DNA of 64,000 nucleotides from the NCBI GenBank assembly GCA_007692425.1, contig RECG01000015.1:1-64000 (forward strand), given 5' to 3'. Both the position numbers and the translations under genes were made by a program. This document shows, piece after piece, positions 27,644-45,819 of the stretch. How positions within the stretch are numbered: position 1 is the first letter of the stretch; every line of letters begins with the position of its first letter. Origin of the DNA: Acholeplasmataceae bacterium. GTDB taxonomy: Bacteria; Bacillota_I; Bacilli_A; Acholeplasmatales; Acholeplasmataceae. Below the pieces are notes generated by a model. The model was not told where the DNA came from. It searched no databases and was given only the letters and a program-made list of their open reading frames with translations.

Positions 27644-29785
27644 CTATTTGATGCCAACGTCTTTCAACACAAATCGTCTGGACAACGTCGTGTTTGACCC
27701 GCCCCCCACGAACACGTCAAATGTGCCAGGCTCGATCTGAGGCTTGCCGTGCTGATCAAACGCAGACAAGTCTTTTGCCTTGAGTTCAAAAACGATTGAC
27801 TTGGTCTCAGCAGGGTCAAACCATACCTTTTGAAATCCTTTGAGTTCCTTGACCGGTCTGACCGGCAATGAGACAAGGTCCCTGATGTAGAGCTGGATGA
27901 CCTCATGACCTGCTTGTTGACTGTCGTTGGTGACCGTGACTGTGATGGTCAGCGTCTCGTTGATTGCCATGACTTCCTTATCCAACCGCATGTCCTCATA
28001 ATTGAAACGGGCGTAAGACAAGCCGTGTCCGAACGACAATTGCGGATCGTTGGAGACATCAAGATACTTGGAAACATATTCGTTGCGTTCATCACGATAG
28101 GGTCTGCCCGTATTGAGATGGTTGTAATAGATGGGAATCTGACCTTCATTCTGCGGAAACGTCATCGGCAGTCTGCCACTTGGGTTGAACGTGCCGTTGA
28201 CAAGGTCGACAATGGCGCTGGCCGCACGGCTGCCGAGAAACCAACAAAGCATCACTGCATCAGCTTTTAAGATCTCTTTCAGCACCAGGGGACGTCCGCA
28301 AAAAAGCAGGACGACCACGGGTTTGCCGGTCGCTTTGGCCATCTTGATCAACGTCTCCTGGCCATCCGGGAGATCCAGTCTGGTGCGGGAACGCGCCTCA
28401 CCACTTTGACGGGCTTGCTCACCGGCACAGACGATGATGACATCGGCCTGCTTGAGCGTGTCGATATCTTGCCGGTCATAATCAGTTGCCTGATTTCCGG
28501 TTTTGGCCATCACGATGTCATGGCCTTTTCTGGCAAAGGCATGATGCAAGGTCTCGTTGAGACGATGGTCGCCGTGCCAGGACCAATTGCCATTGGTCGA
28601 AGATTCGTTGACATAAGGTCCGATCAAGGCAATCGACCGCGTCTTGTCAAGCGGCAGGACTTGATGGTCGTTTTTCAACAATACCGTACATTCCCTGGCA
28701 ATGCGTTCACTTGTGGCCAGATGGTCGGGATGCCTGACCCGTTGTGTCGCCTTGAGAGCGTCGGCGCCTTTGAACGGATTGTCGAACAAGCCAAGTTTTT
28801 CTTTGAGGGTGAGAATCCGTAAGACCGCCTCATCGAGCAAGGCCAACGGGATGACACCCTCGTCAATCAAGGTCTTCAAATAGCGAAAATAGGCTGTCGA
28901 CGCCATTTCAATGTCAACCCCTGCCTCGATGGCAAGTCTCGCTACGTCTTTCAGTTCTGAGGCGACACCATGCGTGATGACCTGCTGCAGGGCATCATAA
29001 TCCGTGATGACCACACCGTCGAAGCCCATCTGCCCACGCAAGATATCACGTAAAAGACCCTGATGAACCGTCGCGGGAATGCCGTTGAACGTGTTAAAAG
29101 CTGTCATGACAAGGTGTGCACCGGCCTTGATGCCGGCTTGATAAGGCGGTGCATAGTGGTTGTAAAACGTATGCATCGACATGTCGACCGTGTTATAGTC
29201 CCTGCCTGCCTCAGGCGCCCCATAAGCGGCGAAATGCTTGACGCAGGCAGCCAGGTTGCCTTCCTTGCCGATGCCATCGTGCTGGAAACCTTCGACACTG
29301 GCGCGGCTGAAACATGAGGCCAGGTAGGCATCCTCGCCAAAGCCTTCCATCACACGGCCCCAGCGGGGGTCACGGCTGACATCGACCATGGGGGCGAACG
29401 TCACGTGAATCCCCGCGGTCTGCGCTTCCAAAGCCGCGATGCGTGCCGCCTTTTTGGCAAGATCGGGATGAAACGATGAGGCCAGGGCGATGGGGATGGG
29501 AAAAATGGTCTCATAACCATGGATGACATCCGCCATGAACATGAGGGGAATCTTGTGTCTGCTTCTTTGCAGGTATTTCTTTTGGACGGCGATCATCTCC
29601 TTGGCATCATGAATGCCAAGGACCGATCCGGCTAAAAATATGTCTGCTTCGCTTAAATCAAGCGCTCTGAGCGCGCCTGCGACTTCGACTTTGAGGTCCT
29701 TGATGAAAAAGAATGGTGCCAGCTGGAGAAGCTGGCCCGCTTTTTCTTCGATGGTCAGTGTTGACAATAGCGACTGAATGTTCAT
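27644..29785 (-). CDS. GH3 beta-glucosidase, cytoplasmic
   Basis: A 713-residue glycoside hydrolase family 3 enzyme that releases glucose from the non-reducing end of beta-glucosides. Domains: TIM-barrel (about 1-320) with KHFAAYGAPEAGRDYN and the nucleophile motif VITDYDAL, an alpha/beta sandwich (about 380-560), and a C-terminal fibronectin-III-like domain (LSFGHGLSYARFNYE onward). No signal peptide, so it acts on imported oligosaccharides. It is the last gene of the operon, 33 bases after the LacI gene, with AAAGGAAGG before the ATG at 29785. Confidence 0.95.
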   Translation of the reverse strand: MNIQSLLSTLTIEEKAGQLLQLAPFFFIKDLKVEVAGALRALDLSEADIFLAGSVLGIHDAKEMIAVQKKYLQRSRHKIPLMFMADVIHGYETIFPIPIALASSFHPDLAKKAARIAALEAQTAGIHVTFAPMVDVSRDPRWGRVMEGFGEDAYLASCFSRASVEGFQHDGIGKEGNLAACVKHFAAYGAPEAGRDYNTVDMSMHTFYNHYAPPYQAGIKAGAHLVMTAFNTFNGIPATVHQGLLRDILRGQMGFDGVVITDYDALQQVITHGVASELKDVARLAIEAGVDIEMASTAYFRYLKTLIDEGVIPLALLDEAVLRILTLKEKLGLFDNPFKGADALKATQRVRHPDHLATSERIARECTVLLKNDHQVLPLDKTRSIALIGPYVNESSTNGNWSWHGDHRLNETLHHAFARKGHDIVMAKTGNQATDYDRQDIDTLKQADVIIVCAGEQARQSGEARSRTRLDLPDGQETLIKMAKATGKPVVVLLFCGRPLVLKEILKADAVMLCWFLGSRAASAIVDLVNGTFNPSGRLPMTFPQNEGQIPIYYNHLNTGRPYRDERNEYVSKYLDVSNDPQLSFGHGLSYARFNYEDMRLDKEVMAINETLTITVTVTNDSQQAGHEVIQLYIRDLVSLPVRPVKELKGFQKVWFDPAETKSIVFELKAKDLSAFDQHGKPQIEPGTFDVFVGGGSNTTLSRRFVLKDVGIK

Positions 29786-29818: not shown

Positions 29819-30781
29819 TCATTCGCAGGATTCACGCCAATAGATCTTGCCTTCGGGATTGTTGATCTTGATCGTCTCGCCCTGTTGAATGCGGTTGACC
29901 ATCACTTCCGCGACATGTTCGCCCCAGCGGCGGTGGTCAATGCCGATGGTGGTCAGTTTCGGTGTGATATAAAGTCCCATCTGGATGTTGTCGAACCCGG
30001 CGATGGCGAGATCCTCGGGAACACGGATGCCGGCTTCCTGGAATGCCGTGATCAAACCGATGGCCGATTCATCGTTGGCACAAAAGATAAAACGCGGCTT
30101 GTTTTTCGCCTCGCACAATGTCTGGCCGATGCGGTAACCGCCGCTGATGGTAAAATCACCCTCCAAGTATTGATGATGCTTGATGCCGTGCGCGTCGAGT
30201 GCTGCTTTGAATCCCATGTAGCGCATGTTGTTGTTGTAGGAATCCTTCGGACCGCTCAAATAGGCAAAATCGCGATACCCCTTGGCGATGACGTCGCTGA
30301 TGAACATGTGGACCAGACCGGCGTTATCGATGACACTGGCAATGATATGGTCGCCGGTGAGATAACGGTCGAGCACGCAGACGGGTGAACCCTTTTTCGC
30401 ATAACGGATCAAGGTGTCATTCGGCAGGTTGCTGTCAAAAATGATCGCGCCGTCGACCTGGCGTTCCTGAAGCAGGATGGTCGATGATTTGCCACTGCTG
30501 ACGATGATGTTGTAATGATGTTCCAAAAGTTTCATATGAATGCCCTCAAGGACATCACTGAAAATCGGACCGGCAAACCCATAAATGAAAACGCCGATAT
30601 TACCAGTCCGGTTGGTCTTGAGGTGCCTGGCGCTGAATTGGGGAAAATAGTCGAGCGCTTTCGCGGCTTCCAAAATCCTGCTTTTCGTGTCCGGGTGGAC
30701 GTTGGGTTGGTTGTTGAGGGCGTATGAGGCCGTTGAAATAGAGACACCGGCCTTTTTCGCCACATCTTTGATGGTTGCCAT
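29819..30781 (-). CDS. LacI-family transcriptional regulator
   Basis: A 320-residue LacI/GalR regulator: helix-turn-helix at the N terminus (ATIKDVAKKAGVSISTASYALNN), hinge helix, and a sugar-binding core. ATG at 30781 follows AAGGAGGAGTG; the in-frame ATG at 30817 lies inside the upstream gene. Encoded within the glycan operon four bases after the cytoplasmic hydrolase. It is the natural candidate for the GAAACGTTTC operators at 24969 and 45884, with a glucan oligosaccharide as inducer (inferred). Confidence 0.93.
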   Translation of the reverse strand: MATIKDVAKKAGVSISTASYALNNQPNVHPDTKSRILEAAKALDYFPQFSARHLKTNRTGNIGVFIYGFAGPIFSDVLEGIHMKLLEHHYNIIVSSGKSSTILLQERQVDGAIIFDSNLPNDTLIRYAKKGSPVCVLDRYLTGDHIIASVIDNAGLVHMFISDVIAKGYRDFAYLSGPKDSYNNNMRYMGFKAALDAHGIKHHQYLEGDFTISGGYRIGQTLCEAKNKPRFIFCANDESAIGLITAFQEAGIRVPEDLAIAGFDNIQMGLYITPKLTTIGIDHRRWGEHVAEVMVNRIQQGETIKINNPEGKIYWRESCE

Positions 30782-30785
30782 CCAA

Positions 30786-32018
30786 TCACTCCTCCTTGTT
30801 TGTCCGGGTCCAGCCAAGCGTCGCCATTCCTTTTTGGATGAGCGGATGCGCCATGTATGCCCGGTAGACGTCCTTGGAAAGGACGGCGTTGACCATCAAC
30901 ATTTCGAGACCCTTGTCGATGGCGATGATCTTGTTGCTAATCCAATGGCCGTCTTCGAAATTGAAGGCGTCCATGAACCCATACTGCTTGTAAAGCCCCG
31001 GTATGCCTGCCATGTCTTCAATGGTCGTCAGTGCCAGTTCAGGCAGAAAAGGTAACGCACCGACCATGCTGAACGGTGCGACGGTGCCATCGGTCTCAAA
31101 GGTGTGATGATGGTTGGGAAGACCGCCAAAAACCCGGTAACCCCTGGGGGTGTCAGATGCGTTGAAACCGAAACGGCAAGGACTGAAGGTCCGATAATCA
31201 TCCATCAGGTCCACGGAAAGTGCCTGGTGGGCAAGAATGGCCTTGCGGGCGTTGTCAAACCATGAGATGCCGTCGGCATCCAGCCAATCGGCAAGGTCAA
31301 GCCAGGCCAGAGGGAATTGATAGACGAAGAGGGCGTTACCCGGACTATAAAGGTATGTGATGTCCTTGTACGAACCTTTTTGGCGGGTAAAGCCGTCATA
31401 AAGTGCTTTTGCATCCTGTTGATAAGGACCGGCGCCGATCATCACATAAATCATCAACTGTTCGGCAAACATGTCCCATTGATGAATAAAACCAGGCTCA
31501 TCGGTGACATATGCACCGCCCTTGTCAGGGTTATAAGACATGTAGAGCATCTTCCGGCCTTGCATGTCGTGGAAAAGCCGTTGCCATTCCACCCTGGCGA
31601 AGAGCCGGTCCGCCAGATCATGGATCACATCATTATTGAAATAGGATGCGGCGGTGATGACGCCGTTGAGACACAAGGCGGTGTCGATTGTCGAGTATTC
31701 GCACATGCGATGCCGTGTTGCACGCTCGATATCCAAATAATGGGCGAAAAAACCATAGCGGTGCGGTACACGTTCAAAGAGCGTCTCCAATGTGTGCCGG
31801 GTGATGAGAAGGGCGGCATCATCCGAGATGTAGCCTTGACTGGCACCGATGACGAGACTGCTGAGCATGAATCCGGTCGCGGCGATCGAGGCGACCGTCG
31901 GTCTGGCGGTACTGTCGGCCGTCAGGCCATAACCGGGACTTCCCGGATTGAGATTGGTATGGTCTTGGAAAAAACGGAAAGCACGGTGTTGCATGTCAAT
32001 CAGACGGTTGTTAGGCAT
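30786..32018 (-). CDS. Glucoamylase-like (PF10091/GH144-type) hydrolase, cytoplasmic
   Basis: A 410-residue protein homologous to the next gene upstream and to PF10091 proteins, an alpha/alpha-barrel fold. Characterised members in GH144 are endo-beta-1,2-glucanases. Shared blocks: the N-terminal FRFFQDHTNLNPGSPGYGLTADS, TVASIAATGFMLSSL, YSTIDTALCLNG, and the C-terminal IAIDKGLEMLMVNA. There is no signal peptide, so this copy would act on imported oligosaccharides. ATG at 32018 follows AAGGAG. Exact specificity cannot be read from sequence. Confidence 0.82.
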   Translation of the reverse strand: MPNNRLIDMQHRAFRFFQDHTNLNPGSPGYGLTADSTARPTVASIAATGFMLSSLVIGASQGYISDDAALLITRHTLETLFERVPHRYGFFAHYLDIERATRHRMCEYSTIDTALCLNGVITAASYFNNDVIHDLADRLFARVEWQRLFHDMQGRKMLYMSYNPDKGGAYVTDEPGFIHQWDMFAEQLMIYVMIGAGPYQQDAKALYDGFTRQKGSYKDITYLYSPGNALFVYQFPLAWLDLADWLDADGISWFDNARKAILAHQALSVDLMDDYRTFSPCRFGFNASDTPRGYRVFGGLPNHHHTFETDGTVAPFSMVGALPFLPELALTTIEDMAGIPGLYKQYGFMDAFNFEDGHWISNKIIAIDKGLEMLMVNAVLSKDVYRAYMAHPLIQKGMATLGWTRTNKEE

Positions 32019-32110: not shown

Positions 32111-33478
32111 TTATCTGGGCTGGAAACCGAGGAGTTCCATACCACGTTGGATTTCGGGAATATCCATGAATACCTGCCAGATGAAGCCGGATCGGTAATT
32201 CTCGATCATCAACATCGTGATGCCCTTGTCAATGCCGATCACATCCGGTGAGTAATAGGGCACCTTTCCGACCAACAGGGGATCGTGATGGCCTTCATGG
32301 AGACCCAGGTTGTAAGCAGCCTTGAACCCATAGGTTCCCCATAAGTCCGGAAACGATTTGAAATGATAGGCGGCCCGGATCGCTTCTTCTTCCAGGTGGA
32401 TGACCGAAGCCAGGGCGGCGTATGGCGCGACCGTGCCGTCCATGTTGTCTGTCCGGTCTTTAGGCGGTGTGCCATAAGCCTTGTAGCCATTGGGGCCGTC
32501 GCTGGCGGAAACACCCCAGGAATTGGCATTGAGGGAACGATAGCGGAAAGAGACATCGATGGCATGGTTGTATGCCGCCTGGGTGGCGCGACGGGCATTC
32601 TCATGCCAGTCGAGTCCGTCACGGTCGAGCACCTGTCTGAAATCAAGGTAAGCATGTGAATACTGGTGGGTGAACAGCTCACCGCCAAATGTATAATAAA
32701 ACGGGTCGACGTTCAGGTCAGGATTGTTTTGGCTGATATAGGGTGCGAAGCGTCTGCTCATATCGCTTTTTAACACACGATAACTGGCATCGCCGGTCGG
32801 ATGGGTGTTCGAACCGGCACCCAGCACATACATCATCAGTTGCTCGGCAAAACCATCCCAGGCACCGGTGTGTTGCTGGGTTTCAGGACTATAACTCATG
32901 TAATAGCGGTGACTGACCGGATGCATGTACCAGTTCCAATCGATGCCGTCATAAATGTCAATGGCCTTGGCATATGCTTCGCCACCGAAGTAACGACCGG
33001 CGAACAAGGCACCGGTGACAAGTAAAGCCGTGTCAATGACGGAAACCTCGCTGTTCCAGACGCGTTCGGTTGTGTGCATGCTGATGAAATGGAAATAGAA
33101 ACCATGATGGCGCGTCATGCCCAGCAAGGTATCAAGCGTGCCCAAGGCGCGCTCAAGGCCTTCGTCATGGGTGATCCAGCCGTTTTCAATCCCGATGGGA
33201 ATGGCGGCAAGCGCAAAACCGACCGAAGCGATGCTGGCCACACCGGATGCACCCGGATAACGGTCACGGGCCATGCCGAAGCCACTGCTTTCAGGATCTG
33301 AGTTGCTGGTTTCCCAAAAAAACAGGAAGGCACGGTACTGCTCTTCAAGCAAGAGACCGTCAATCTGACGGGCCTCACGCTCATAAATACCTGTTGGTGG
33401 CAGCGTGTCAGGTTGACAGGCCACCAGCATGAAGACGGATAATACGATTAAGATGATCAGGGTAATTTTGTTTTTCAT
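32111..33478 (-). CDS. Secreted glucoamylase-like (PF10091/GH144-type) lipoprotein
   Basis: A 455-residue lipoprotein (lipobox LVAC, Cys21) with a full PF10091 catalytic domain: FLFFWETSNSDPESSGFGMARDR, VASIASVGFALAAIPIG, VSVIDTALLVTGAL, DGTVAPYAALASV and the C-terminal GIDKGITMLMIENYRSGFIW. GH144 members are endo-beta-1,2-glucanases. Anchored outside the cell, it would cut polymer into fragments for the two ABC importers. ATG at 33478 follows CAGGAGAG, four bases after the permease gene. Confidence 0.87.
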   Translation of the reverse strand: MKNKITLIILIVLSVFMLVACQPDTLPPTGIYEREARQIDGLLLEEQYRAFLFFWETSNSDPESSGFGMARDRYPGASGVASIASVGFALAAIPIGIENGWITHDEGLERALGTLDTLLGMTRHHGFYFHFISMHTTERVWNSEVSVIDTALLVTGALFAGRYFGGEAYAKAIDIYDGIDWNWYMHPVSHRYYMSYSPETQQHTGAWDGFAEQLMMYVLGAGSNTHPTGDASYRVLKSDMSRRFAPYISQNNPDLNVDPFYYTFGGELFTHQYSHAYLDFRQVLDRDGLDWHENARRATQAAYNHAIDVSFRYRSLNANSWGVSASDGPNGYKAYGTPPKDRTDNMDGTVAPYAALASVIHLEEEAIRAAYHFKSFPDLWGTYGFKAAYNLGLHEGHHDPLLVGKVPYYSPDVIGIDKGITMLMIENYRSGFIWQVFMDIPEIQRGMELLGFQPR

Positions 33479-33482
33479 GATG

Positions 33483-34415
33483 TCACTCTCCTGTAATCCC
33501 GGCTCTGTCGATACCTTCGATAAAGAGCCGTTGTAAGATAAAATACATGATCAGCATCGGCAGGATGATGAGCAGCGTCGCCGCCATCCGGATGCCTTCA
33601 TTGATCATCGCCGCCTGTCCGGGGAATAAATCCTGGTAAGCGGAAACAAAGATGAGCAGCCTCAACTGCAAGGTCTGGACCGAAGTCCCCAAAAAGAGGC
33701 TTGAGAGATACGTTTCATTCCAATACCAGACGAAACTGAACAAGAAACTGGTGACAAACGACGGAATCGACAACGGAATGGCAATCTTGAAGTAAATATA
33801 AAGGTGATTGGCGCCGTCCATCTGGGCTGCCTCATCGAGCGATTTTGGAATCATTTTATAAAACTGGTAGAAAATCAGGATGAAGATGGCCGAGTTCAAG
33901 CCTTGTCCGAATGAGGCCGGGATGATGATGGCCCAGATCGAATTGAGCAAACCCAGGTTGTTGAAAAGGACGAAACGGGGAATCATCACGATTTGCGGCG
34001 GGATGATATACGTGATCAAGACGATGGCGAACAAGGTCTTTTTCAACGGAAAACGGAAACGGGCGAACCCATAACCGATGAACGAGGCGACAATCGTCTG
34101 CATGACCGCCGGCAACAAGGTGACCGACAAACTCGTCATCAAGGTCGGAAAATACCTGAGCACCAGGAACGACTGCCGGAAATTCTCGGTATAAAACTTG
34201 GTGGGCAGATAAAAGACCGTCGGACTGAGCAGGTCGCCAAGATCCTTGAAACTCACCGTCAACATGTGCAAGAGCGGATAGACATAGACAAAACCGATGC
34301 CAATCAGCAAGGTGTAGATCAAGGTCTTGAATATCAAGCCGTCATTAAAGCGAAGGCCCCAGAACAGACGTCTGGTCTTGTTGATGAAAGGCTTGGAAAA
34401 CAGTTTATTTTGCAT
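33483..34415 (-). CDS. Carbohydrate ABC permease, MalG/UgpE type (set B)
   Basis: A 310-residue inner permease of the second sugar importer, six membrane segments with the EAA loop DEAAQMDGANHLYIYFKIAIPL. Starts at ATG 34415 after GAGGTAAGG, overlapping the partner permease by 11 bases. The longer in-frame start at 34460 lies wholly inside the partner gene. Pairs with 34405-35301. Confidence 0.93.
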   Translation of the reverse strand: MQNKLFSKPFINKTRRLFWGLRFNDGLIFKTLIYTLLIGIGFVYVYPLLHMLTVSFKDLGDLLSPTVFYLPTKFYTENFRQSFLVLRYFPTLMTSLSVTLLPAVMQTIVASFIGYGFARFRFPLKKTLFAIVLITYIIPPQIVMIPRFVLFNNLGLLNSIWAIIIPASFGQGLNSAIFILIFYQFYKMIPKSLDEAAQMDGANHLYIYFKIAIPLSIPSFVTSFLFSFVWYWNETYLSSLFLGTSVQTLQLRLLIFVSAYQDLFPGQAAMINEGIRMAATLLIILPMLIMYFILQRLFIEGIDRAGITGE

Positions 34416-35301
34416 GAACCTTACCTCGCGTTTCCTTGTATTCACGCTTGGGGAAGGCAATCAGGAGGAAGGCCGCCGCCAACAATAGGGCGACGAGCAA
34501 AAAGTAGATCCATGCCATCGCGGAAGCATAGCCATAACCACCTTGGACATCAAACATCGTGCGTCTGATCTGGTTGATGATCGGATTGTTGCCAAACGTC
34601 GATAGCATGACAATCGTGTAGACCGTGCTGATCAGAATGATGTTCTTCAATGATGGCAACGTGATTTTCCAAAACGTCTCCCATGGTGACGCCCCGTCAA
34701 CGAGCGCAGCTTCGTAAATTTCCTTGTTGATCTTTTGCAAGCCGGCCAGGAACAAGACGATCTGGACACCGGAAAACCATAATACCATGATCATTTCTGT
34801 AAACAACGCGGTCAACGGTTCAGCCAGAAGCGGTGGGAATATCTCGCGAATCAACTCGAGCATGCCATAGCGTTCGATCAATGGGACGGTGCCGGCACCT
34901 TGGGCGATCAGCTCATTGATGACCGGACCGCTGGCGATGATGACCGGCAGGAAAAACACCGACCGGAAAAAACCGCGGAACCTGATTTTCTGGTTGAGCA
35001 TCATGGCGATGATCATCGACACGATGATGATGATCGGCACATAGAGGATGATTTGTTGGATGAACGTGATGAGCATGTCGATATAGATGACATCGGTGGT
35101 CAACACCCTGACATACTGGGCGAACCCGACCGGTTGAAGGACGATGCCCTGCGCACCGGTGATTGAGACCTGGCTCATGCTGAACACGAGCGAACGCAAA
35201 AGCGGAATCATGGTCAGGATGACAAAACCGATGATCCAGATACCGATGAAGGCATAACCGGATAAGGCTTCCTTATGACGAGATTTCAGATGGATCTTCA
35301 T
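34405..35301 (-). CDS. Carbohydrate ABC permease, MalF/UgpA type (set B)
   Basis: A 298-residue sugar permease, six membrane segments, EAA loop YEAALVDGASPWETFWKITLP. ATG at 35301 shares its A with the TGA stop of the DUF5696 gene and follows GGAGGGG. Together with 33483-34415 it forms one transmembrane pair. Confidence 0.93.
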   Translation of the reverse strand: MKIHLKSRHKEALSGYAFIGIWIIGFVILTMIPLLRSLVFSMSQVSITGAQGIVLQPVGFAQYVRVLTTDVIYIDMLITFIQQIILYVPIIIIVSMIIAMMLNQKIRFRGFFRSVFFLPVIIASGPVINELIAQGAGTVPLIERYGMLELIREIFPPLLAEPLTALFTEMIMVLWFSGVQIVLFLAGLQKINKEIYEAALVDGASPWETFWKITLPSLKNIILISTVYTIVMLSTFGNNPIINQIRRTMFDVQGGYGYASAMAWIYFLLVALLLAAAFLLIAFPKREYKETRGKVHAK

Positions 35302-37601
35302 CAAACCCCTCCGATCGCATAGTCGTTGGACGCAATGTCCAGCAAACCGCTATAATCATGTCTCGAATAGTTGATGCCAATGATGACACCGTTGCTGTAA
35401 GTGATCAGGTTGACACCAGGCGCGACCACTTCACGACTGACAACATGGGCGCCGATGACATGTCTGAGTGCTTCATTGACATAAGCATACTGGCGCTTGA
35501 TTTCGGGTGCCCACACCTCATACTGCGATGTATAAATGTCCGCTGACCCGGTTTCAAGCAACAAATACGCGCTGAAATCGGTCAGATAATAGGCAGGGTA
35601 AAGGTTGTAGTCAATCAAACGCAACAGCTCGTTCTGGGTATTGGAAAAGAAATTGGCAGGACGTGAGAACAATGGTTTTTGACCCGCCAGCACATAGCTG
35701 AGGAACGGCACGGTGTCACTGAATTTGGCCTGTTGGCTTGAATACATGACAAAAGTAAAGTGATGATCAGCCCCAAATAAATAATCGAAGGGTTCGTACA
35801 CGGCCGTCTGGTCAAACAGTTCCAGCATGCGTTGATAGGTCTTGATCGCATCTGAGCGGGAGAGCGGTTGATTGCCATGACTTGAATACAGCAACTGGCC
35901 GATGGTCTCAAAAGCGACATGGCGGATGCCATAAGACGCCATCTGCGACCGCATGTCCGACACTCTCTGATAAGATGCTTCGGGATGCATCAGGTACCAT
36001 GTGCCGGACACATCCTCGCCCTCATTGTTCAAAAGGTTCCGGCGGGTGGAAAGATCATAAGGTGAATAACCCCGGCTGCCGACATAGGCGCGCGATGGTT
36101 CGACATGATAATAGATTGTCACATCACGGGCGTTCAAGGCGTTGAAGGCGGCTTTCGAGCCCAGTGCACGCAAGGCGGGCATTTCGTTTAAACTCGACCC
36201 TGTCAACCCGCTTCTACCATAACCGCGATAGGAGACGACCAACTGTGTGATGCCATCAGCCTGGAGGTCGTCAATCATCAAGCCCAGTGCTTGGACATCG
36301 GTCATGACAAAGGTGTTGCGGCCGAACAAGGCACGCTTGTTCTCAGCGGCAAGCACATCCAGATGAACGGGAATGTCGTCTGATTCATAAGAGGTGCCAT
36401 CCAAAATGCCCTGGTTGATCAGGTGGCTGCGATAAGCGTTGGCCAGTCCCACGTAATTGGCGTCTTCACCTTGAAGCAAGACAAGACGTAAATCGAGATC
36501 AACCGGATTAAGTTCGGTTTGCAGCCTGGTGATGGCATTGGTCTGGCTTTGGTTCAATGGTTGACGATACACCGACCGATATTGGAAACTGGTGAACGTC
36601 CAGAAAAAGTCGGTCGTGATGTCAGCCGGATAAACCGTCAAGGACGCATAGGGTGCCCCGCCTTGGACAATGCCAAGCAAGGCGTTTTGGTCGATGCCGT
36701 GGACGAGACCGTACATGTTGGCCTGCAACATGTGCTCGTCTTTGACATAACCGGTGGTGGTGATGATGCTTCTGGCGATGCCGGGATCGAAGCCATAGAA
36801 CGGTTTTTCATAGATGTTGTTGAAATGATCGCGTTGGTCAAAACGCATCAATGCACCAATCCCGTCAGGAACAAGGACATAGCCCGGTGTGCGGTCACGT
36901 TTGACCGCACCGAAAAAGGGATAGGGCGACAACCTGGCAAGTTTGGCGTTCGGTCCGTCAATGATGCTGTCCTGCGGAATGGTGATGGCAAGACCATCAC
37001 TTTCCAAGGTGACGACCAAGGTCAGACGAATGCCTGAAGCACCGAAAAACAGTTGCGCGGAGAAGCCATTTTCAAGCACGGTCACTGCCATGTTGCTGAG
37101 CGGTGACAAGAACAGGCTTTCCTCCCGGAACTGTGGATTGGTGTCCACACTGGTATAGTAACCGATGAACACCGGTGAACGGACACGGTTGCGCCATGTC
37201 TGGCTGCGGAACCCGCGGTCACCTTCGTCGTAAAGGTCGGGATAAAGCGGTTCGCCCTCGTCATCCAGCTGGTCATAGTCCATGAAGAAATTGGATCCCC
37301 AGACGTAACCGGTGCGCAGATCGATGACGCGCAAGGACAATTCGGCCATATTGACAAACAATGCAAATGTATCATTTTCAGCCAGTTTGTCAAAATCATC
37401 GGTAATGGTCACATAAGGATTTTGTGCCACCCTGAGATCGCTTTCCATTTGTGTATAACGATTCGACAAAAGGGCACTTCGCGCGACTGCTTCTTCGGTG
37501 ATCAGCAAACGATCAAGTACATCCGGTGCAGCTGAGACCTGACCAAGGGTGATCCATACCAGGGCCAATACCACGAGCATGATCCGTTTAACGACCCACA
37601 C
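35301..37601 (-). CDS. DUF5696 protein, secreted, possible TIM-barrel glycosidase
   Basis: A 766-residue exported protein. A hydrophobic N-terminal segment ends near VSAAPD (signal peptide or anchor). Residues about 60-300 fit the DUF5696 opening (AENDTFALFVNMAELSLRVIDLRTGYVW), a beta-sandwich that resembles glycosidase N-terminal domains. Residues about 400-700 alternate strands and helices as in a TIM barrel (LGLMIDDLQADGITQLVVSYRGYG; VTIYYHVEPSRAY; MASYGIRHVAFETIG). No characterised relative is known to me. GTG at 37601, nine bases after AGGAGG, is preferred to TTG at 37607 or ATG at 37574. Its fixed place among glucan genes suggests a role in polymer handling. Confidence 0.75.
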   Translation of the reverse strand: MWVVKRIMLVVLALVWITLGQVSAAPDVLDRLLITEEAVARSALLSNRYTQMESDLRVAQNPYVTITDDFDKLAENDTFALFVNMAELSLRVIDLRTGYVWGSNFFMDYDQLDDEGEPLYPDLYDEGDRGFRSQTWRNRVRSPVFIGYYTSVDTNPQFREESLFLSPLSNMAVTVLENGFSAQLFFGASGIRLTLVVTLESDGLAITIPQDSIIDGPNAKLARLSPYPFFGAVKRDRTPGYVLVPDGIGALMRFDQRDHFNNIYEKPFYGFDPGIARSIITTTGYVKDEHMLQANMYGLVHGIDQNALLGIVQGGAPYASLTVYPADITTDFFWTFTSFQYRSVYRQPLNQSQTNAITRLQTELNPVDLDLRLVLLQGEDANYVGLANAYRSHLINQGILDGTSYESDDIPVHLDVLAAENKRALFGRNTFVMTDVQALGLMIDDLQADGITQLVVSYRGYGRSGLTGSSLNEMPALRALGSKAAFNALNARDVTIYYHVEPSRAYVGSRGYSPYDLSTRRNLLNNEGEDVSGTWYLMHPEASYQRVSDMRSQMASYGIRHVAFETIGQLLYSSHGNQPLSRSDAIKTYQRMLELFDQTAVYEPFDYLFGADHHFTFVMYSSQQAKFSDTVPFLSYVLAGQKPLFSRPANFFSNTQNELLRLIDYNLYPAYYLTDFSAYLLLETGSADIYTSQYEVWAPEIKRQYAYVNEALRHVIGAHVVSREVVAPGVNLITYSNGVIIGINYSRHDYSGLLDIASNDYAIGGV

Positions 37602-39594
37602 GGGCAATCACCTCCTTGAACAGGCCACCAAAGTAATCAAAGACCTGGAAAAGCAACAAATAGACGACAAAGATCAACAAGATCATCAGCACCACGGTGA
37701 AAAACGTCAACAAGATGTTCTTGACCAGTTCGCGCAGGTTGTAACCATGAACTTCTTTGAGCATGATGATGACATAAAGCGCGGTCCAGCCAAACATGAA
37801 GGTGTGAAGAAACTGATAGATGAAAATCTCATCATAGGTCAGACCATAGGAGATCACGACGACCGGCACGGCCATGAACATGAACGGGGCCAAGGCATAG
37901 GCACAGCCGACATAGACATCTTTGAACCAGCCCTCACCTTCATTGATCGTGCTGATCAGGTAATTGGCGAAGACAAACAACATGATGAGTCCGATGATGA
38001 TGCCGGCATGACGGATGATGGAAAAGGTCTCGCTATCGACCGTACGGAAGATGAAGGCCGGTCCGACCGCGATCAATACGGCCAATGCCGTCGCGATGCC
38101 ATACAGGATGGTGGCGGACGCATACGAGCCTTGCTTGCGGTATCTTATATTGTATAACGTGTCCAAAGGATGTCTGAGCATATGATAGACATGACTCAGT
38201 TCAAACATCAATCTCACCTCGAGCAATCGCTTCTTGGTGCGTCTGAGCGGGGCGTAAATCTGATATTTGAGATCGACAAACTTGAGTGTCTTTGTGCCCG
38301 CCAGCAACAAAATCAATCCTATAAGGACCGTTCCGAGATGATTTTGAAGGTATGTGTAGCGCAGTTGCCAGAACGCATTCGAGTAACCGGTCTTGTCATG
38401 GGCCAGTTGATAATAATGGCGTGCTTCATCGTAGTGGCCAAGCCTGTAATTGGCTTGTCCGATCGCACTGTTGGCCAGCGCGAACATCTCGTTCAGGGCA
38501 AGCACATCTTCCCATTGTGACACATCATAAATGCCTTCTTTGAATGACAGCAAGCCTTGATGGACGGTCCTGGTGAAGGTCGAAGTATGGAAGGCCTGGA
38601 TGGTTCCCGTCGTCCGGTCGAGCACATAGATGTGGTGATTGGAGTCGACGGCGATGTCAACTGGATTGACAAACAAACCCAAGCGCCGGTTGCCGGTGCT
38701 GTCAAGACCGCCGAATTCGAAAATCATGTTGCCGAAGGAATCGTATTCCGTGATCATGCCTTGGCTTGAAAGGGTGATGATGTTACCGATCTGGTTGATG
38801 GCGACAGACACCAGGTCTGGTGCCGAATATTCGTTGTCAAGGGTGTCGATTGATGCGATGTTGAAACGCTTGAGACGTTTGAAATCGGTCGGACTGACCG
38901 TATAGACCATGCCTTGCTCGTCAATCGTGAGATTGGAGGCGGATGTAGGAATGTTGAGCGCAAACTCGACATTAAACAGATTGGCAAGCCGTTGGAGCCA
39001 GGTCATGCCAGTGATGTTCGTTCCGAAAAAGCCGATGAACTCACCGGTATGGTTGAGCTGGATGATGCCGGAGGTCGATCCTTCGCCGACAATATACATG
39101 TTGCCTCGTTTACCGACGGCGATCTTGCGGGGCACATAGGGCGATGTGCGACCGAAAATCGGCTCGGTCGGACGATCGAACGTGGCTAAGAGATCACCGT
39201 TTTCGTCAAAGACCAAGACCAACCTGGCCTGGGGGTCGGCGACATAAAGATGATTATCTTCATTGACAAACACACCAGTCGGTGCCAACATCTGCGCATG
39301 GGTGACTTCGAGCAAGACATGGCCTTCAAGGTCCAGTTTGATGATACGCTGGTTGCCGGTATCGGCCACATAGATGACATCATCCTTGATCATCAGAGCC
39401 TCCGGCGCTGAAAGGTCGATGTCCAGACTGACAAAACCGGCCGGATCATAAGCCGTCTGGGTTTTGATTCTTCTGCCTTTCGGTCCGATGGTGTAGGTTT
39501 CATAGGGCACGGACGGATCATCCGAACTGGCCTTGGTCTCGAGGGGGATGACCAAGAGCAACAGGACCAGCACGAAGATGATGAGCTTTTTCAT
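37588..39594 (-). CDS. NHL beta-propeller / Yip1-domain membrane protein
   Basis: A 668-residue protein. A signal peptide (about 1-22, ...ETKASS) is followed by an NHL-type propeller of about five or six blades (about 45-345; repeats such as PEALMIKDDVIYVADTGNQRIIKLD and DIAVDSNHHIYVLDRTTGTIQAF), a short TPR-like helical pair (about 375-410: AIGQANYRLGHYDEARHYYQLA), one membrane segment (about 425), and a Yip1-like domain with five segments (about 490-655). So an extracellular propeller is joined to a membrane domain. Similar proteins sit in sugar ABC operons of Bacillota; role unknown. ATG at 39594 follows AAGGAGG. Confidence 0.82.
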   Translation of the reverse strand: MKKLIIFVLVLLLLVIPLETKASSDDPSVPYETYTIGPKGRRIKTQTAYDPAGFVSLDIDLSAPEALMIKDDVIYVADTGNQRIIKLDLEGHVLLEVTHAQMLAPTGVFVNEDNHLYVADPQARLVLVFDENGDLLATFDRPTEPIFGRTSPYVPRKIAVGKRGNMYIVGEGSTSGIIQLNHTGEFIGFFGTNITGMTWLQRLANLFNVEFALNIPTSASNLTIDEQGMVYTVSPTDFKRLKRFNIASIDTLDNEYSAPDLVSVAINQIGNIITLSSQGMITEYDSFGNMIFEFGGLDSTGNRRLGLFVNPVDIAVDSNHHIYVLDRTTGTIQAFHTSTFTRTVHQGLLSFKEGIYDVSQWEDVLALNEMFALANSAIGQANYRLGHYDEARHYYQLAHDKTGYSNAFWQLRYTYLQNHLGTVLIGLILLLAGTKTLKFVDLKYQIYAPLRRTKKRLLEVRLMFELSHVYHMLRHPLDTLYNIRYRKQGSYASATILYGIATALAVLIAVGPAFIFRTVDSETFSIIRHAGIIIGLIMLFVFANYLISTINEGEGWFKDVYVGCAYALAPFMFMAVPVVVISYGLTYDEIFIYQFLHTFMFGWTALYVIIMLKEVHGYNLRELVKNILLTFFTVVLMILLIFVVYLLLFQVFDYFGGLFKEVIARVGR

Positions 39595-44349: not shown

Positions 44350-45819
44350 TCAGCTATTTTGCAAAGCTTGCTCCAACGCAGCCCATGCATCTTGATAAAT
44401 CGTATTGACACGGTTGTTCAACTGGGTGGCGACATCCGCCAACATGACTTGTCCGTCACGGATGGCATCCAATAACGTGGCGATCGTGTAGGTGTTTGCA
44501 CCGATGGTGCCATAGGTGCCGTTCCAACGGGCATTGACATACCCTGGTACGGTCTTGATGCCTTCGATCATGAATGAATCATGATTGAGCACTTGGATGA
44601 ACTCGGTCATCATGCCGGGTGGAAAGAGGGCAAGATAAGCATCGAACAAATCCTCATCTTGTTGGAGAGGTGCGAAGTTGACGGTGCCTGACATCGGAAA
44701 CTCGGTCGCGATTTCAATACGCTTCAAATAACCTTCTTTGCCGAAACCAAGCCATTTGGCAAGCAAGTAAGCTTCTTCGGGATGTTCAGTGCCCTGTCCT
44801 GCCACCAGGTAATCCAAGACGACGGGAATGCGTTGCACGCCATCAACCACCACCGGTGTACCGATGAAATCGATATCCATGCCATATAGACCGGCTTCCT
44901 CATCAAGGGTGCTGGGAATGATCCAACCCCAATCCCAGGTACCACCCCAACGGACAGCGTGACGTCCTTTTTCAAACTGCGAGCCCGAACCTTCACTGTA
45001 CCAGGTTGCTTTTTGCATGACGCTGGATGTTTCCCAGATATACGAGGCGTACTGGTCTTTGTTAGGGCCGAAAAACTCGCGCTGGATGGCCATCGCCTGG
45101 GCAAAGGCCGTACTGTCAAGATGGAATCCTTCTTCGTTAAAGGTATACCAGCCCAACGTGTTATCAAATTGAGCGGGCATCCATTCAAAAATGTTGGCGA
45201 CACCTTCTAATCCGACGATGCCCGTGCCATCGCTCGGGGTGGTTGACACTTCTTCAGCCAGATCAAGCAGATCATCCCAGGAAATGCCGAAGACCGGCGC
45301 ATCCAGGTTGGCATCTTCAAACAAGGTGCGGTTGATGAAATAACCAAAATAGAAATTGGATTGCGGGATGCCGAAATAGCGTCCGCCGTAAACAGCGGCT
45401 GTGGCGATGTCTTGCGGGACATTGGCCAACTCGGGATCATCTTGCATCACATCGGTCATGTCGTGCGCCCAACCATTGATGACAGCAGTCGGGACGGTCG
45501 CGTACATGTAAAGGTCAGGCAAGGTGCCGGTGGCGGCCATGGATGCGAGCATCTCATCCCAGTTCATGTCCATCTCGACATCGGGATTGTCGGGATTGGG
45601 AATACGGGGGCGTTCGACGATCTCAACCCGGATGTGCGGATATTCGTCCATAAAGGCATCGATCATGCGCCGTTCGATGTTGTAATCTTCGATATTGCCC
45701 ATGTTCCAACCTGCGTAACGTAATGTGATGATGTCTTCATCGGAATCGTCATCACGTCTGCATCCAGAAATGACAACCAGTACCATCATGATTAGAAAGA
45801 CGACAATCAGTTTCTTCAT
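44350..45819 (-). CDS. Sugar-binding lipoprotein of ABC importer
   Basis: A 489-residue extracellular solute-binding lipoprotein (lipobox ISGC, Cys20) of the family-1 type: ITLRYAGWNMG at the start, GTLPDLYMYATVPTAVINGWAHDMTDVM, YFGIPQSNFYFGYFINRTLFEDANLDAP and SWDDLLDLAEEV. First gene of the glycan operon, with ATAAGGAGG in front of the ATG at 45819. The operon carries two binding proteins and two permease pairs; this one may serve set B. Confidence 0.93.
   Translation of the reverse strand: MKKLIVVFLIMMVLVVISGCRRDDDSDEDIITLRYAGWNMGNIEDYNIERRMIDAFMDEYPHIRVEIVERPRIPNPDNPDVEMDMNWDEMLASMAATGTLPDLYMYATVPTAVINGWAHDMTDVMQDDPELANVPQDIATAAVYGGRYFGIPQSNFYFGYFINRTLFEDANLDAPVFGISWDDLLDLAEEVSTTPSDGTGIVGLEGVANIFEWMPAQFDNTLGWYTFNEEGFHLDSTAFAQAMAIQREFFGPNKDQYASYIWETSSVMQKATWYSEGSGSQFEKGRHAVRWGGTWDWGWIIPSTLDEEAGLYGMDIDFIGTPVVVDGVQRIPVVLDYLVAGQGTEHPEEAYLLAKWLGFGKEGYLKRIEIATEFPMSGTVNFAPLQQDEDLFDAYLALFPPGMMTEFIQVLNHDSFMIEGIKTVPGYVNARWNGTYGTIGANTYTIATLLDAIRDGQVMLADVATQLNNRVNTIYQDAWAALEQALQNS

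Follow-up and report, generated by a model that had tools for sequence, protein, structure and literature searches.

CUT1 oligosaccharide ABC importers, which rely on a shared MsmX-type ATPase, are a known class of transporters. Among the glycosidases closest in fold to the protein described here, NagBb is an alpha-N-acetylgalactosaminidase and EngBF an endo-alpha-N-acetylgalactosaminidase, as described in PMC8106489. D435 is one of the two catalytic residues of NagBb, and DagB retains the equivalent residue, D486, at only 16% identity to NagBb (PMC5698469), so that divergence alone does not remove the nucleophile Asp. The family DUF5696 (PF18952), named in no paper that we found in the PMC literature (subscription papers and preprints being outside the search), has the fold of a sugar enzyme but conserves no pair of acidic residues.

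The DUF5696 gene of the window

The window, by which we mean the whole 64-kb stretch of DNA that was analysed, carries an open reading frame that the earlier note had taken for a DUF5696 protein (Table 1). The assignment was confirmed by a PF18952 match of 442 bits (E 4.8e-132), where the curated threshold is 25.6, extending over model positions 6-601 of 612. The GTG is the better start, with a GGAGG about 9 nt ahead of it, but the numbering of residues takes as M1 the TTG at 37607, the earliest start that the reading frame allows. Read from this TTG, the gene shares its first bases with the end of the NHL/Yip1 gene upstream and its stop with the permease gene that follows, an arrangement like that of a tightly coupled operon. 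Both the sequence and the AlphaFold2 model place a hydrophobic helix at the N-terminus, followed by an AxA-like site, and the protein is predicted to be exported, as had been proposed. When the window protein was compared with PDB sequences by phmmer no match was found, and a profile was needed instead. The window protein gave no match to PF11308 (GH129) at E up to 1 and none to PF12905 (GH101), and the NCBIfam scan returned only TANFOR, below its cut-off (21 vs 67 bits).

Table 1. Positions in the window of the DUF5696 gene, of sites and domains within it, and of the neighbouring genes
Feature	Position	Strand	Basis or remark
GH3 glycosidase, without evident signal peptide	27644..29785	-	Pfam; sequence
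LacI-type regulator	29819..30781	-	Pfam
Second PF10091 protein, without evident signal peptide	30786..32018	-	Pfam; sequence
PF10091 lipoprotein	32111..33478	-	related to GH144 endo-beta-1,2-glucanase (3.2e-33) and XCC2207 (4.6e-57)
ABC permease P4	33483..34460	-	PF00528 3.5e-16
ABC permease P3, which overlaps the stop codon of DUF5696	34405..35304	-	PF00528 1e-7
DUF5696 protein	35301..37601	-	GTG start at 37601; 768 aa when counted from TTG 37607
TIM-barrel region, about residues 412-690	35538..36374	-	model; aligned to GH129 barrel
Y604-E605 codons	35793..35798	-	hhalign: GH129 acid/base NagBb E478 and its neighbour
E567 codon (HVAFE strand)	35907..35909	-	hhalign to GH129 nucleophile NagBb D435
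N-terminal beta-sandwich, about residues 71-380	36468..37397	-	DSSP of model; holds D248
NHL-repeat and Yip1 membrane protein, 668 aa	37588..39594	-	PF01436 1.8e-13, PF04893 3.2e-8; directly upstream
ABC permease P2	39605..40498	-	iterated permease profiles
ABC permease P1	40479..41393	-	iterated permease profiles
Large solute-binding protein, 979 aa	41386..44325	-	PF01547 at 569-853; model pLDDT 88.9
Second solute-binding lipoprotein, ordinary size	44350..45819	-	PF01547 7.2e-13

Predicted fold and relationship to GH129

The AlphaFold2 model, built on an alignment of 65 relatives (pLDDT 91.0, pTM 0.91), consists of the hydrophobic N-terminal helix, which would be an export or membrane segment, a beta-sandwich, a TIM barrel and a C-terminal sheet. 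The beta-sandwich front (about residues 72-378 in the model) and the barrel had both been anticipated from the sequence, and together they reproduce the beta-sandwich and TIM barrel of NagBb. The best solved matches found by Foldseek were DagB (5opq, 8.7e-29) and NagBb (5wzn, 1e-25), followed by GH101 enzymes, and a second structure aligner placed NagBb first (Z 28.5-28.8 over 559-566 residues, rmsd 3.9-4.0), then DagB (Z 26.5) and GH13, GH101 and GH36 structures at Z 17-18.5. At the sequence level, the DUF5696 profile found DagB (3e-11) and NagBb (1.5e-8) among PDB sequences by hmmsearch, and hhalign against seven GH129-like proteins, of which the one compared with PDB sequences matched NagBb at 3.5e-195, gave a probability of 98.8 (E 4.8e-17, 522 columns). 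Since the structure matches and the sequence profiles agree, DUF5696 is homologous to GH129 and has the same architecture.

Weak DUF5696 matches at model positions 300-360, which occurred in many genomes and included sub-cut-off ones in two control genomes, were considered as distant DUF5696 proteins, and the open reading frames that we read at 14 places, all outside those two genomes, refuted this. Seven of the places (L039-L045) encode the GH129-like proteins, which are about 600 aa long and in every case exceed the DUF5696 cut-off; the other places looked alpha-amylase-like by eye, and L046, the sole one of these scanned, belonged to GH13. A PF11308 scan of four of the GH129-like proteins placed L043 above the cut-off and L039 and L041 below it, with L042 not listed. 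The Pfam DUF5696 model thus picks up true GH129 proteins, and automatic DUF5696 labels may include real glycosidases.

The catalytic and metal-site positions

The equivalence of residues between DUF5696 and GH129 rests on a profile alignment and is to be read as predicted. A single MAFFT run of both families misplaced the catalytic strands (the GH129 columns read N and H), and for this reason the hhalign profile-profile mapping was used. In this mapping Y604 pairs with NagBb E478 itself and E605 with the neighbour of E478. The residues matching D435 and E478 were invariant in 7/7 GH129-like proteins, which is consistent with E478 being, as we presume, the GH129 acid/base. Counts were made on 124 rows, obtained from 135 by removing 11 with identical cores; the rows retained still include several close relatives, and L004 is the copy that stands for the window protein.

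The earlier note had pointed to the GIRHVAFETIG strand as one that might carry a catalytic acid. This strand does align with the nucleophile strand of GH129, but an acid occupies column 567 in only 55/124 relatives, D or E being nevertheless the commonest state there, and the window protein has Glu and not Asp. At the acid/base position, where the window protein has Tyr at 604 and Glu at 605, a D or E was found at column 604 or 605 in 28/124. Acids at both positions were present in 5/124, the window protein among them, and sliding both sites to rescue an acidic pair raised this to at most 27/124. By comparison, when one plus two barrel columns were picked at random 500 times, 20% of the picks gave acid pairs in at least 5/124. 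On a tree of the 124, a minimum of 51 changes is needed at column 567, 51 at 604 and 50 at 605, against 39 for the median column, and all three are more variable than about 72-73% of the 564 DUF5696 columns. The conserved Asp/Glu pair, whose absence across the family had been set beforehand as refuting the glycosidase proposal, was therefore not found. The metal site has fared no better: H320, D322, H366 and H271, which are changed in the 5wzq mutant, we take to be the GH129 metal-site residues, in keeping with the positions invariant in 7/7 GH129-like proteins, and the mapping covers the first three (H271 being without a mapped column), for which columns 459, 461 and 502 are mostly G/S/V, L/Y/I and N/Q/V/R.

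Other positions are well kept. Five columns hold an acid in 75% or more of the relatives: two in the sandwich (248 and 274), two on the first barrel strand (417 and 422), and 666, with D or E in 90% of the 124 at 422, 79% at 417 and 98% at 666; D248, in a PDGxGAL motif, is the most conserved acid of the family. Near the barrel mouth G462 is conserved, accompanied by W463 in 80/124, and the strand that would once have carried the acid/base has a PNxY motif (P in 100, N in 79 and Y in 103 of 124). P634 occurs in 124/124 and N652 in 123/124 relatives.

A fixed transport cassette

We collected 135 loci from DUF5696 similarity alone, some places being counted twice, and read their neighbours with iterated profiles of the window's neighbours. 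The order is fixed: a solute-binding protein comes first, then two permeases, NHL/Yip1, DUF5696 and two further permeases. The gene immediately upstream of DUF5696 encodes Yip1 in 129/135 loci, alone in 59 and NHL-fused in 70 (short loci may show the fusion as Yip1 alone), and a permease lies directly downstream in 125/135. Fourteen of the 16 misses are ends of available DNA, and the true exceptions are L085, which has no upstream part, and L073, with a 0.9-kb gap before P3. The complete set of P1, P2, NHL, Yip1, DUF5696, P3 and P4 was found in 71/135 loci, and in 70 of these 71 a solute-binding protein (median 988 aa) stands ahead of it, so that the operon has the solute-binding protein and at least two permeases of a CUT1-type importer.

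The linkage also holds in reverse. A Yip1 model found 88 places in 61 related genomes, with DUF5696 directly downstream in 84, and the two were found in the same 36/61 genomes; the 90 DUF5696 places entered in this search included one below-cut-off end piece and omitted below-cut-off GH13-like matches. The unpaired places (4 Yip1, 6 DUF5696) lie at contig ends. Judged by record titles, the carriers are Bacillota and Mycoplasmatota-type bacteria, members of the Chloroflexota (Chloroflexus and Anaerolineae) and a single Treponema. Searches of the PMC literature for a Yip1 domain combined with an NHL repeat and an ABC transporter found no paper, and those for Yip1 with an ABC permease or solute-binding protein and a glycoside hydrolase found none on the cassette, as judged by title.

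Three more DUF5696 genes (L001, L002 and L003), 23-29% identical to that of the window, occur in the source genome beside Yip1 and permease genes. As judged by eye, members with a separate Yip1 (for example L001, 1483-4047) often start with an uncleaved-looking anchor, and those of the fused type more often have a signal-peptide-like start; a lipobox-like start was seen in 9/124.

When a permease tree was built from 61 loci (10 of the 71 complete loci were dropped as near-identical, truncated or without the long binding protein), P1, P2, P3 and P4 each formed exactly one clade in 61/61, with split supports of 1.0, 0.29, 0.89 and 0.985, respectively. Distances in the DUF5696 tree follow those of the other cassette parts (Spearman 0.85-0.91, with shared descent uncontrolled). 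No ATPase gene was found in the cassette; the source genome has one clear MalK/MsmX-type ATPase match elsewhere and one weak match. The large solute-binding protein, about 990 aa in most loci, is modelled as two beta-sandwiches and a helical part followed by a sugar-binding-protein fold, and this last part resembles the beta-1,2-gluco-oligosaccharide binding protein 5ysb (Z 36.8), tied with 3uor (37.0). No Pfam family scored above its cut-off over the front half of the protein, the roughly 500 residues that precede the binding fold.

Companion hydrolases and possible substrates

The gene had been described as embedded between permease genes of a glucan locus, and its setting is as described: P1 and P2 lie upstream, beyond NHL/Yip1, and P3 and P4 downstream, followed by two PF10091 glucanase-like genes, a LacI gene and a GH3 gene. 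A beta-1,2-glucan-type substrate is at most a fair guess for this locus. The link to glucan itself has to be loosened, however, as the gene is tied to the transport cassette and not to one glucan, and the hydrolases beside the cassette differ between loci. Among 97 loci we counted PF10091 in 15 (with SOGP phosphorylase also in 2), GH5/GH16 in 27 (a BLAST cluster that may be chain-linked), GH3 in 27, NamZ in 6, GH35/42 in 6, GH26 in 4, GH30 in 3, and GH10, GH2 and GH106 in 2 each, 35 being without a label. These names come from one scanned representative per BLAST cluster, extended by membership, and apply to clustered open reading frames of 250 aa or more (86 unclustered ones were excluded). 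Across loci the neighbour genes suggest beta-1,2-glucan-type, laminarin-type, mannan, xylan and cell-wall glycans as putative substrates. That the cassette stays the same while the hydrolases beside it change speaks for DUF5696 being a general component and not an enzyme for one bond.

At six loci (L063, L135, L140, L142, L147 and L148) the cassette adjoins a NamZ exo-muramidase and GH3, and at L140 and L142, as well as at L053 (in the source genome) and L065, it stands beside a GKRP/SIS protein; these neighbours suggest uptake of cell-wall sugars.

Proposed role of DUF5696

The proposal that the window protein is an uncharacterised glycosidase thus stands for its GH129/GH101-like fold and ancestry, but not for an activity of the family, in which the acid pair is found in 5/124. 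Because the family has lost the cutting residues and travels in a fixed sugar-import set, we consider a part of an uptake machine likelier than a new enzyme. We hypothesize, with a probability of about 0.6, that DUF5696 is a former GH129/GH101-fold glycosidase that has become a fixed, most likely non-catalytic, glycan-handling subunit of an oligosaccharide importer with two permease pairs. Exported hydrolases would cut the polysaccharide outside the cell, the large solute-binding protein would catch the released pieces, and DUF5696, at the outer membrane face beside the Yip1 protein, would hold the glycan in its old sugar pocket or hand it over, with a shared MsmX-type ATPase powering the permeases. 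This scheme supposes sugar binding by the pocket, contacts of DUF5696 with both Yip1 and the permeases, and joint action of the four permeases, driven by an ATPase of the MsmX type; DUF5696 would then be needed for transport. More tentatively, and with the odds somewhat against it, the two permease pairs, the propeller/Yip1 protein, the binding protein of 990 residues and an inactive protein of GH129 fold could form one machine, a distinct and widespread class of importer that passes long or cyclic glycans and takes its specificity from interchangeable binding proteins and hydrolases.

Two observations count against a non-catalytic subunit, namely the acids at both aligned sites in the window protein and the prevalence of D or E at column 567. 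The well-kept acids at 422 and 417 could moreover mark a different active site, and DUF5696 might then be an active glycosidase whose catalysis has moved, for example to 417, 422, column 503 or 666. Catalytic sites do move among GH129-like folds: in DagB, which is closest in fold, the D435 equivalent is all that is shared with NagBb, and one essential Asp is supplied by the partner subunit (PMC5698469). We nonetheless regard a moved site as unlikely: D and E are split 60/62 at 666 and 80/31 at 422, which would be uncommon at a catalytic position, 37/124 relatives have N at column 503, the Asp that DagB and NagBb have in common despite so low an identity is not preserved in DUF5696, and the partner hydrolases can supply the chemistry.

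Since the window protein has both E567 and E605, activity of this single copy is possible, going by its residues, and it might belong to a minority, the 5/124 with acids at both sites, that still act as GH129-like enzymes on the local glucan. That the minority is active seems improbable to us, given that the close relatives L069, L070 and L086 read E/Q, Q/E and E/Q at 567/605, that E605 is one position off the residue pairing with E478, that the metal-site columns are lost, and that NagBb and DagB cut alpha links whereas the local enzymes point to a beta-glucan. We give a similarly low chance to DUF5696 and NHL/Yip1 being a sensor or assembly factor for the transporter rather than a substrate-handling part. 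The strict pairing with the propeller/Yip1 membrane protein and the presence of the same cassette parts beside different glycan enzymes would fit such a role, but a Pfam scan found no signalling domain in the DUF5696 protein, LacI-type regulators occur in only 28 of the loci read, and features near the barrel mouth such as G462 and PNxY are conserved. The glycan-handling subunit is our preferred reading. The fold is likely to lead annotators and enzyme hunters to treat DUF5696 as a source of glycosidases, but the evidence from the family points to transport. If the cassette is one machine, its four permeases, Yip1 and pseudo-glycosidase would constitute a new bacterial route for the uptake of polysaccharide fragments.

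Comparison with known systems

The GH129 enzyme NagBb (5wzn) has its whole fold in common with DUF5696, from the beta-sandwich through the barrel to the C-terminal sheet (Z 28.5 over 566 residues), in addition to the profile homology. In contrast to NagBb, DUF5696 has not kept the nucleophile, acid/base and metal-site columns, is predicted to be exported or membrane-anchored, and is linked to a transport cassette. DagB, an alpha-1,3-(3,6-anhydro)-D-galactosidase (5opq, 8rzk), is the best Foldseek match; unlike DUF5696 it keeps Asp486, which is strictly conserved in DagB homologs, and forms a dimer in which the partner contributes an Asp to the active site (PMC5698469). The GH101 endo-alpha-N-acetylgalactosaminidases EngBF and SpGH101 also share the fold (Z 17-18.4), but they are larger, multidomain proteins with a catalytic Asp and Glu (D764 and E796 mutants appear in PDB entry titles).

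As for the transporter, the DUF5696 cassette resembles CUT1 importers in that it combines a solute-binding protein with permeases of the BPD_transp_1 family and has no ATPase gene of its own. It differs from them in its four permeases of four clades, in the presence of NHL/Yip1 and DUF5696, and in a binding protein of about 990 aa.
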